Assembly (NCBI RefSeq): GCF_001969365.1
Contig: NZ_CP019312.1
Location: forward strand, 1,488,001-1,552,000
Direction: 5' to 3'
DNA: 64,000 nucleotides
Source: Tateyamaria omphalii
GTDB lineage: Bacteria > Pseudomonadota > Alphaproteobacteria > Rhodobacterales > Rhodobacteraceae
The notes beneath the pieces were generated by a model that ran no database searches, was not told the origin of the DNA, and was given only the letters and a program-made list of their open reading frames with translations. Both the position numbers and the translations under genes were made by a program. This document shows, piece by piece, positions 22,162-48,553 of the stretch; position 1 is the first letter of the stretch; each line of letters begins with the position of its first letter.

Positions 22162-22235
22162 GCGGGTATGGTGAAAAGGTATCACGGCAGCTTCCCAAGC
22201 TTTAGTTACGGGTTCGATTCCCGTTACCCGCTCCA
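22162..22235 (+). tRNA. tRNA-Gly, anticodon CCC
   Basis: The 74 nt fold as a cloverleaf: acceptor GCGGGTA/TACCCGC, D-stem GTGA/TCAC, anticodon loop TTCCCAA, T-stem ACGGG/CCCGT with loop TTCGATT, discriminator T and encoded CCA. The anticodon stem GCAGC/GCTTT has three good pairs next to the loop, but the outer two are G-U and C-U. Confidence 0.93.
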
Positions 22236-45651: not shown

Positions 45652-46437
45652 TCACAGCGCGGTCCAGCCGCCGTCCACGCTGATTGTTGTGCCGGTGATC
45701 TGATCTGCAGCGGGCGAGCAGAGGAAAACTGCAGTGCCGCCCATCTGTTCGGTCGTGGCGAATTCCTTCGAAGGCTGACGCTTGAGCATGACGTTCTTGA
45801 TCACCTCTTCGCGGCCCATGTCGTATTCCTTCATCGTGTCGGGGATCTGGCTTTCGACCAGTGGGGTCAGCACGTAGCCCGGGCAGATCGCGTTGGCGGT
45901 GATCGGTTCCTCTGCCGTCTCGAGCGCGGTTGTCTTGGTCAGGCCGACAATGCCGTGCTTGGCCGCGATATAGGCCGACTTGTAAGGCGAGGCCGTCAGA
46001 CCGTGGGCGGAGGAGACGTTGATGACGCGGCCCCAACCCGCATCCCGCATCATCGGCAGTGCCGCCGCTGTGGTGTGGAAGGCGGAGCTGAGGTTGATGG
46101 CAATGATGGCGTCCCATTTGTCGACCGGAAACTCGGGTATGCCGGCCACGTGCTGGATGCCTGCGTTGTTGATGAGGATGTCACAGGCGCCCGCCTGTTC
46201 GATCAGCGCACGGCATTCGTCGCCCTTGGACATGTCGGCCTTGATGTAGCGGGCGTTGGTGCCCGTCTTATCCGCGATCTCCTTGGCGATGGCATGATCC
46301 TCGTCGCTGTCGGTGAACGAATTCAGCACCACATCCGCCCCGGCGCGCGCCAGTTCCCATGCCATGCCCAGGCCGATGCCCGAGTTCGAGCCCGTGATGA
46401 CGGACGTCTTGCCGCCCAGTGAGATTTCAAAAGCCAT
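45652..46437 (-). CDS. bdhA: 3-hydroxybutyrate dehydrogenase
   Basis: A 261-residue short-chain dehydrogenase that oxidises D-3-hydroxybutyrate to acetoacetate in polyhydroxybutyrate breakdown. The NAD site is TGSNSGIGLG, the stabilising motif is NNAG, and the catalytic residues are Ser in VSSAHG and the Tyr/Lys pair in SAYIAAKHG. The segment CPGYVLTPLVE matches known D-3-hydroxybutyrate dehydrogenases. It is the first gene of the bdhA-patatin unit. A candidate small RNA is encoded upstream on the same strand and ends 92 bp before the start. Confidence 0.92.
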   Translation of the reverse strand: MAFEISLGGKTSVITGSNSGIGLGMAWELARAGADVVLNSFTDSDEDHAIAKEIADKTGTNARYIKADMSKGDECRALIEQAGACDILINNAGIQHVAGIPEFPVDKWDAIIAINLSSAFHTTAAALPMMRDAGWGRVINVSSAHGLTASPYKSAYIAAKHGIVGLTKTTALETAEEPITANAICPGYVLTPLVESQIPDTMKEYDMGREEVIKNVMLKRQPSKEFATTEQMGGTAVFLCSPAADQITGTTISVDGGWTAL

Positions 46438-46529: not shown

Positions 46530-46558
46530 AAAAAAAACGCCAGCACGAAGCTGGCGTT
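46530..46558 (-). terminator. Rho-independent terminator of the candidate small RNA
   Basis: AACGCCAGC/GCTGGCGTT is a 9-bp perfect stem with a 5-nt loop, directly followed on the minus strand by eight U residues (including those pairing at the stem base). It lies upstream of the bdhA start, where no gene would be expected to end. Confidence 0.85.
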
Positions 46559-46605
46559 AAGTTATTGAGGCAGGTTTCATACAGGCAAGAAACCTATCGA
46601 GCAGT
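46530..46605 (-). ncRNA. Candidate small RNA between bdhA and the peptide-binding protein gene
   Basis: A roughly 76-nt transcript is predicted on the minus strand. It has its own promoter (TTGGAC 46636-46641 and TATAAC 46612-46617, 18 bp apart). A first hairpin AGGTTTC/GAAACCT (46589-46595 and 46572-46578, 10-nt loop) follows, then a strong terminator. It overlaps no gene. It could act in trans, or be a prematurely ended leader of bdhA. A 7-codon ATG-to-TAA frame (46559-46582) lies inside but has no ribosome-binding site. I do not recognise a known family. Confidence 0.6.
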
Positions 46606-46611
46606 GGCCTT

Positions 46612-46641
46612 GTTATACGCAAACCCGCCCGAAGAGTCCAA
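46612..46641 (-). promoter_or_regulatory. Predicted sigma-70 promoter of the candidate small RNA
   Basis: TTGGAC and TATAAC hexamers on the minus strand with 18-bp spacing; the start site is expected near 46605. Confidence 0.6.
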
Positions 46642-46720
46642 GCTAAAAGTTTGATAATGCGTAAGTGTCCCCGGGCCGCTATTGTTAACAAAACAAGGGC
46701 GATCGAGGATTGTTTACGAA

Positions 46721-48553
46721 ATGAGCAGGCATTTTTTCCAAACCGGACCCAGCAAAAACCGCGCCATGTCGGCGATTCTCGCGGGTCTTGTTGGCCTTGC
46801 CGCAATGGCACAAGCAGAGCCACAACATGGCATAGCTATGTATGGAGACCCGGCCCTACCACCGGATTTTGTGGCTCTTCCACACGCGAATCCCGATGCG
46901 CCGACAGGCGGTGCCATCACCCTCGCCAATACGGGCAGCTTTGATTCGCTCAATCCCTACATCCAGAAAGGCAACGTGCCCTGGCAGCTGCGCTTTCTCA
47001 CCCACGAAAGCCTGATGGGCCGCAGCCGCAACGAACCCTTCGCGCTCTATGGCCTGCTGGCCGAATCGATTGAGACAGATCCGGACCGGACCTGGGTCGA
47101 ATTCACGCTGCGCGAGGAGGCGCGTTTTTCCGACGGCAGCCCGGTAACGGTCGAGGATGTCCTGTGGTCGTACGAAACGTTGGGGACCGAGGGGCACGGG
47201 CGCTATCGCAGCCTGTGGACACAAATCGAAACACTGGAACAGACCGGCCCGCGCAGCATCAAGTTCACCTTCAACACCGAGAACCGCGAACTCGCCCTGC
47301 TCGCCGGAATGCGCCCCATCCTGCAAAAGGCACAGTGGGAGGGGCAGGATTTCGCAGCCGCCACTATCAATGACGTCCCCATCGGATCCGGCCCCTACGT
47401 TGTGAGCGACTACGAAAGCGCGCGGTACGTCACCCTGACCCGCAATCCGGACTACTGGGGTACGGACCTTAACTTTCGCCGCGGCACGTTCAATTTCGAC
47501 GAAATCACCATAGACTTTTACGGCGATGGCGATGTGGTGCTGGAAGCGTTCAAGGCAGGCGAGATTTCGGCCTGGCGCGAGTTCAACGCCGAGACATGGA
47601 ACAGCGAATACGATTTCCCGCGCGTGCAGTCCGGCGATGTTGTCAAAACCGAGGTGGAGCACCAAAAGCCGTCAGGCATCACCGGCTTCGTGATGAACAC
47701 CCGCCGCGCGCCCTTTGACGACTGGCGGGTGCGCGAGGCGCTGATCACCGCGTTCAACTTCGAGTACATCAACGACACGCTGACCGGCGGGGCGCAACCG
47801 CGCATCACCTCGTACTTCTCGAACTCGCTGCTGGCAATGGAACCGGGTGCCGCCAAGGGGCGCGTGGCCGAACTGCTGGCGCCCTTCAACGGCACGCTGC
47901 TGCCCGGGGTGATGGAAGGATACACCCTGCCCGAAAGCGATGGATCGCTGCGCAACCGACAGGGACTGCGCCGCGCCATTGGCCTACTGGAAGAGGCGGG
48001 GTGGAGCACGCAAGACGGCAAGATGCGCAATGCCGATGGGCAGGCGATGGCATTTACAATCCTGCTGGACCAGCAACGGACCGAAGACCGCGCTATTGCC
48101 AATCTGTACATTCAGGCGCTGGAACAGCTTGGCATCGACGTGAACATCGACCTGGTCGATGGCGCCCAGTTCACCGCGCGCGAGGATTCGTTCGATTTCG
48201 ACATGACATATTACCGCCGCGCCCTGTCTCTGAGCCCCGGCAACGAACAATGGTTCTACTGGGGCTCCACCGCCGCGGACGAGGAAGGGTCAGCCAACCT
48301 CATGGGAGCACAGGACCCGGCAATTGATGCAATGATCACCGCTATGCTGACCGCAACCACCCGCGAAGACAGCATTGCCGCAACACGCGCACTCGACCGG
48401 CTGCTGACGGCGGGTCGTTATGTGGTCCCGTTCTGGCAGTTCACCACAGGCCGCATCGCGCATGTGTCAGAGATGAAGCACCCCGACGTGATCCCGATTT
48501 ATGGCGATGGGCCCGACTGGATGCCCCAGTTCTGGTGGTGGGACGCGAACTAA
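46721..48553 (+). CDS. ABC transporter solute-binding protein, family 5 (YejA-like)
   Basis: A 610-residue periplasmic binding protein for peptides or related compounds. A signal peptide spans about residues 1-34 (AMSAILAGLVGLAAMAQA, cut before EPQHG). The family 5 signature region is seen in FTLREEARFSDGSPVTVEDVLWSYETL, and the C-terminal WMPQFWWWDAN ending is typical of YejA-type proteins. No permease or ATPase gene follows, so it is an orphan component here; the next gene is an aquaporin. The ATG at 46721 is preferred over 46682 because it gives a more normal signal peptide. Confidence 0.88.
   Translation: MSRHFFQTGPSKNRAMSAILAGLVGLAAMAQAEPQHGIAMYGDPALPPDFVALPHANPDAPTGGAITLANTGSFDSLNPYIQKGNVPWQLRFLTHESLMGRSRNEPFALYGLLAESIETDPDRTWVEFTLREEARFSDGSPVTVEDVLWSYETLGTEGHGRYRSLWTQIETLEQTGPRSIKFTFNTENRELALLAGMRPILQKAQWEGQDFAAATINDVPIGSGPYVVSDYESARYVTLTRNPDYWGTDLNFRRGTFNFDEITIDFYGDGDVVLEAFKAGEISAWREFNAETWNSEYDFPRVQSGDVVKTEVEHQKPSGITGFVMNTRRAPFDDWRVREALITAFNFEYINDTLTGGAQPRITSYFSNSLLAMEPGAAKGRVAELLAPFNGTLLPGVMEGYTLPESDGSLRNRQGLRRAIGLLEEAGWSTQDGKMRNADGQAMAFTILLDQQRTEDRAIANLYIQALEQLGIDVNIDLVDGAQFTAREDSFDFDMTYYRRALSLSPGNEQWFYWGSTAADEEGSANLMGAQDPAIDAMITAMLTATTREDSIAATRALDRLLTAGRYVVPFWQFTTGRIAHVSEMKHPDVIPIYGDGPDWMPQFWWWDAN

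Follow-up and report, generated by a model that had tools for sequence, protein, structure and literature searches.

The question raised by this locus is whether the short interval upstream of bdhA in Tateyamaria omphalii encodes a small RNA in its own right, and if so which one, or whether it belongs to a bdhA leader in which transcription is terminated prematurely. Both readings had been put forward in a preliminary description of the 64,000-nt stretch of genomic DNA analysed here, which is termed the window. The features of the locus are given below, with positions counted from the first nucleotide of the window.

46605-46530, minus strand: small RNA gene (highly probable StsR orthologue, see below), 76 nt, with the A of ACTG as its first base and the eighth T of the tract as its last; supported by alignment A1 and covariance model R1
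46571..46595, minus strand: hairpin 1, with a 7-bp stem AGGTTTC/GAAACCT and a 10-nt loop, TTGCCTGTAT
Minus strand, listed between hairpin 1 and the terminator stem: single-stranded stretch CCTGCCTC
46530..46558, minus strand: intrinsic terminator with T8 tract; 9-bp stem at 46558-46536, then eight T's
46570..46587, minus strand: segment comprising small RNA nt 19-36, perfect complement of the mraZ leader of the same genome
46598..46604, minus strand: segment CTGCTCG, small RNA nt 2-8, which may pair with the mraZ leader at a second site
46641-46636, minus strand: -35 element TTGGAC (conserved TTG), here 18 nt from the -10 element
46617-46612, minus strand: -10 element TATAAC (conserved TATAA), its TAT starting 12 nt upstream of the initial A of the RNA
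46643..46654, minus strand: conserved upstream element TCAAACTTTTAG, directly upstream of the -35 element
45652..46437, minus strand: bdhA, 3-hydroxybutyrate dehydrogenase (TIGR01963, 352.6 bits, cut-off 307.05); a neighbour, not part of the RNA
46721..48553, plus strand: gene for an extracellular solute-binding protein, family 5 (PF00496, 241.5 bits); divergent neighbour

The predicted RNA

The 7-bp hairpin, the terminator with eight U's, the hexamers 18 nt apart and an RNA of about 76 nt, as originally outlined, are all present on the minus strand. Judging from the sequence, the RNA measures 76 nt to the end of the T8 tract, or 72 nt should transcription stop after the fourth T. Its predicted fold consists of two separate hairpins and has a z-score of -4.3 against 200 dinucleotide shuffles. 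The result of a simple terminator scan is weak evidence when taken alone, as three terminator-like sites were found in 4 kb where 3.6 are expected. It is the fold score, together with the sequence conservation across Rhodobacteraceae described below, that places the locus beyond chance. On these sequence-based grounds the locus very probably does encode a small RNA, one that is conserved family-wide.

Phylogenetic distribution and conservation

A blastn search with the locus yields a match in 146 of 149 genomes, which represent Rhodobacteraceae with one genome per genus; the three genera with no match are represented by assemblies of 73, 74 and 90% completeness. A second, weaker hit in one genome (L162 in G130) is excluded from all counts of 146. 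The first 40 nt of the RNA are nearly invariant, and the first 46 nt are identical to those of the window RNA in 83 of 147 loci, a total that includes the later dropped L162. Among the matches listed, the exact 39-nt core is found in Ruegeria pomeroyi, several Paracoccus species, Leisingera, Roseobacter and Sulfitobacter.

Alignment A1, from which covariance model R1 was built, contains 93 of the 143 distinct sequences, hand-picked for diversity. Hairpin 1 is paired in 99.8% of the cells of these 93 relatives and six of its seven base pairs never vary; the stem is so nearly invariant that no covariation test of it is possible. The terminator stem does covary. Changes are present on both sides in seven of eight counted pairs, a level of covariation reached by none of 500 shuffles.

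The preliminary description looked to a covariance search of the order for conserved stems with compensatory changes and for a conserved promoter. Model R1 has a match in all 196 sampled genomes of the order, with a single match in 195 of them; the terminator shows the compensatory changes, and the promoter is conserved in 139 of 146 relatives (see below). In one further genus, 124 of the 125 genomes have a match to the model. When 289 genomes of the class were searched, eight showed a match. Four of these are in Rhodobacteraceae (E about 1e-25 to 1e-24), and the 285 genomes outside the family contribute only four weak matches (E 2.7e-4 to 9.5e-4). No Rfam family reaches its gathering score at any of these four loci, and the one that was inspected (L305) has a terminator-like hairpin and no core. 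The four are probably chance matches. With so few and such weak matches outside the family, the RNA appears limited to Rhodobacteraceae.

Promoter

The -35 and -10 hexamers had been regarded as good ones. They are indeed present and their TTG and TAT trinucleotides are found at conserved places in 139 of 146 relatives, but TTGGAC matches the sigma-70 consensus TTGACA at only three of six positions, and a sigma-70 scan of the locus does not report the promoter. The base that follows TTG is G, not A, in 128 of the 139 relatives. Spacing between the hexamers in these 139 is 17 nt in 124, 18 nt in 11 and 16 nt in four, and the T, A and T of the -10 element have frequencies of 0.97, 0.98 and 0.97 among the 146 relatives. 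With the A of ACTG taken as +1, TAT starts at -12. For one RpoHI/RpoHII target, the published account gives a motif with TTG at -35 and TAT at -12 (PMC10673084). The small RNA promoter fits this motif, and at the level of the motif it may depend on the RpoH sigma factors.

The sequence TCAAACTTTTAG (46643-46654) is conserved across the family, and more so than a promoter alone would need. Within 70 nt upstream, CAAACTTTT is present in 113 of 146 relatives and TCAAACTTTTAGCTTGG in 76 of 146. Perhaps the element is UP-like or is a site for a regulator.

Relation to bdhA

The neighbourhood of the RNA gene is itself largely conserved. The divergent solute-binding protein gene is found upstream in 140 of 146 relatives, and 121 of the 146 have bdhA, counted at an identity of at least 55%, in the same orientation as the RNA gene and downstream of it, at distances of 15 to 2933 nt. 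bdhA is within 300 nt in 105 of the 121, an arrangement that speaks for a regulated attenuator in the bdhA leader, whereby the terminator stops transcription and some signal lets it through into bdhA. This was the alternative originally proposed, with premature termination tied to polyhydroxybutyrate use. However, in 12 of the 121 relatives the distance to bdhA exceeds 700 nt, and the gene was not found in the available stretch of 25 of the 146, 15 of which have at least 2.5 kb of downstream sequence. The variable distance and the absences are not the constant coupling that an attenuator needs. In addition, sequence conservation stops at the T tract in the 30 closest loci, the predicted fold has two separate hairpins, and the invariant core of the RNA pairs with mraZ leaders, as described in the next section. 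The attenuator is therefore rejected as very unlikely, and the RNA gene probably lies before bdhA as part of a conserved neighbourhood, without regulating it.

Pairing with the mraZ leader

A search of the genome with the locus gives, as second-best match, 18 identical nucleotides (G000:C1:1869406-1869423), antisense to the leader of mraZ. The leader thus holds a perfect complement of small RNA nt 19-36. In this genome mraZ is followed by rsmH/mraW, which marks the start of the dcw cluster (gene names are from reading of the translations). The pairing site is about 214 nt before the start of the mraZ match, and a GC-rich hairpin is found downstream of the site.

Is this complementarity a property of one genome or of the family? 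Of the 145 genomes with mraZ, 144 show a single match to the MraZ sequence of T. omphalii. Leaders were taken from 89 of these 145 genomes, one per genus (the 30 best matches and 59 hand-picked), and two (G098 and G019) were dropped on account of contig ends, which leaves 87 leaders. The longest perfect complement to the genome's own small RNA is at least 11 nt and falls within small RNA nt 14-42 in 77 of the 87. In control searches, made with a shuffled core or in the sense orientation, the longest complement was 5-9 nt in 170 of 174 cases and 10-11 nt in the other four. Most of the ten leaders that fail the exact-match test form a long duplex that is interrupted by a mismatch or a bulge or contains a G-U pair.

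Duplex energies give the same picture. The median over the 87 leaders is -33.4 kcal/mol, compared with -19.6 kcal/mol for shuffled small RNA, and 84 of the 87 leaders pair as strongly as or more strongly than the best of 87 shuffled controls (-27.0 kcal/mol). The three weaker ones are G121 (-24.5), G014 (-22.3) and G059 (-20.8 kcal/mol, at -136); by duplex energy the G059 leader has no convincing pairing site. The best site is at -260 to -140 in 86 of 87 leaders. These results lend strong support to the earlier suggestion of a free-standing, trans-acting RNA. The main pairing segment comprises small RNA nt 18-39, in agreement with the proposal that the loop and the CCTGCC segment are base-pairing regions.

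The mraZ leader of T. omphalii (L002:1305-1520, minus strand) is long, and contains a GC-rich hairpin and an element that is conserved family-wide. The consensus of this element from the 87 leaders is agATCCGgCgCgcg.gcGAGcAGACatccccccAGgtgGcgcGcGcag.

Identity with StsR

A small RNA with these properties has been described in Rhodobacter sphaeroides. StsR (formerly RSs0827) is reported to be a 72-nt RNA that is under the control of RpoHI/RpoHII and is induced in stationary phase, and that binds UpsM and targets rpoE (PMC8307010). UpsM is described as the 206-nt terminated form of the 268-nt mraZ leader and as a feature of Rhodobacteraceae (PMC5089854). Binding of StsR to UpsM and to the dcw leader is said to promote cleavage by RNase E (PMC8307010; PMC11354728; PMC8625941). 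Like StsR, the window RNA is about 72-76 nt in length, is free-standing, has a TTG/TAT promoter and is complementary to the mraZ (dcw) leader. The two differ in that StsR is from R. sphaeroides, where photosynthesis-related effects have been reported, whereas the window RNA is from another genus; also, rpoE, the second published StsR target, is not supported as a pairing partner in the window genome (see below). UpsM is not to be confused with the RNA itself: it is the partner and target, made from the dcw promoter, and the window RNA comes from a separate locus. The long mraZ leader found here is probably the UpsM of the T. omphalii genome.

From its target, size, free-standing gene, promoter and family-wide single copy, we infer with high confidence that the window RNA is the orthologue of StsR. 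The assignment was made by the published description, which leaves some room for another reading: the window RNA could correspond to an R. sphaeroides RNA other than StsR that has UpsM/dcw as its target too, with StsR proper encoded elsewhere. Such an arrangement would require a common target for two free-standing RNAs, each of about 72 nt. Genomes as a rule have a single match (195 of 196 with model R1), and the arrangement is regarded as very improbable. Orthology with StsR remains the favoured reading.

If the findings in R. sphaeroides apply here, the RNA would be transcribed with the aid of the RpoHI/RpoHII sigma factors under stress and in stationary phase. Together with Hfq, it would pair with UpsM, the product of termination in the mraZ leader, and with the dcw leader in its full length. 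This would alter the structure of the leader and expose it to RNase E, whereupon dcw mRNA would fall and growth would slow.

Two expressed RNAs of 80-84 nt from Paracoccus denitrificans, Intergenic 60 and Intergenic 134, are reported to be conserved in sequence in Rhodobacteraceae (PMC5107571). One or the other could be the same RNA as that of the window.

Comparison with Rfam and the MmgR/alpha-r8 family

The RNA had been termed previously unannotated. This is true in so far as no Rfam 15 family reaches its gathering score over the locus, but the RNA matches the published StsR. The only hit at gathering level in the window is a tRNA gene at 22162-22232.

The best Rfam match of the locus, with 21.4 bits, is to suhB/mmgR (RF00519). 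MmgR/alpha-r8 RNAs, which include Caulobacter SisA-D, resemble the window RNA in that they are short alphaproteobacterial RNAs in which a weak hairpin is combined with a strong terminator, and the founding member of this family affects polyhydroxybutyrate in Sinorhizobium. That bdhA is also related to polyhydroxybutyrate speaks for membership of the window RNA in the family. The score, however, is below the gathering threshold of 41. The family is defined by a single-stranded 10-mer, UUUCCUCCCU (PMC12559287), and this core is missing from the window RNA. Moreover, RF00519 has a better match elsewhere in the same genome (32.5 bits, also below gathering), which carries CTTCCTCCCT. Membership is rejected and is considered extremely improbable. 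The better match (L038, C1:1470397-1470477, plus strand) is located about 17.5 kb before the window and, from its sequence, is probably the alpha-r8 RNA of the T. omphalii genome.

Other sub-threshold matches were to RyhB, Hrs12, sroD, NsiR1 and SorY (12.5 bits for the last, gathering 111) on the same strand and to Hammerhead_1 on the other strand. All are below gathering and were discarded.

A possible second pairing site and other targets

Nucleotides 2-8 of the small RNA have a complement in the leader as well. CGAGCAG is found 29-45 nt downstream of the first site in 73 of 87 leaders, and permuted 7-mers occur at the same place in a mean of 2.95 of 87. One overlapping permutation, however, scores 71. 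Since the motif is inside a strongly conserved element, and in view of this permutation, its conservation may stem from the leader's own structure. In all 14 genomes whose leader has no CGAGCAG, the small RNA still starts with ACTGCTCGA. Retention of this 5' end where the second site is missing points to other targets of the 5' end.

Pairing with rpoE in the T. omphalii genome shows no signal above shuffles. Two relatives, G721 and G719, are members of a genus with plasmid sequence in common with C. sphaeroides 2.4.1, and here the result is mixed: the top predicted site in rpoE is about 10 nt after the GTG taken as the start codon in G721, not in G719. The G721 site is similar to the published StsR-rpoE pairing, which starts about 10 nt after the rpoE start codon. 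G051, of the same genus, has one copy of the small RNA and shows no match to ChrR, the partner of rpoE. Thus rpoE was set aside as a conserved target, being not above shuffles in the window genome and mixed in the two relatives.

A different candidate is motB. The motB leader of one genome, G032, contains a 20-nt perfect complement of small RNA nt 21-40 (G032:C17:169550-169569; L314:1551-1570, minus strand), situated about 8 nt before the start codon. This complement is absent from the other 29 leaders among the 30 best motB matches, of which three are at loci cut by contig ends, where leaders are possibly misplaced. As a conserved target motB was likewise set aside, as only G032 has the site, which suggests a target gained in a single lineage. 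The pairing in G032 is possibly a lineage-specific one that ties the small RNA to motility.

Significance

In the literature searched, we found no mention of StsR, or of its pairing with the mraZ leader, as being conserved throughout Rhodobacteraceae, although this may already be in print. The same searches found neither the core-sequence strings of the RNA nor a paper that joins StsR, Rhodobacteraceae and sRNA. As far as these searches show, it is new that both the RNA and its mraZ-leader pairing are conserved across the family.

A broader reading can be offered, tentatively and with somewhat less than even confidence: that StsR and its pairing with the mraZ leader form an ancestral, near-universal stress-to-division switch of Rhodobacteraceae as a whole, rather than a trait particular to R. 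sphaeroides, and that the switch is bipartite. Nucleotides 18-39 would hold the leader upstream, and nt 2-8, at a near-fixed spacing of about 36 nt, would invade a conserved leader hairpin and pry it open. The invariant 5' end, unchanged where the leader has no second site, would in addition serve a second, equally conserved set of targets, and some lineages would have targets of their own, e.g. motB in one genus.

With this analysis, an anonymous candidate becomes an orthologue that can be tested and for which a target is predicted; the group concerned has many model bacteria of marine and soil habitats (Ruegeria, Paracoccus and others). With no Rfam 15 family at gathering score for this locus, the alignment and the covariance model could found one. 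The conservation of both the RNA and its target site throughout the family suggests that control of the cell-division cluster by this small RNA in response to stress is ancient and general.
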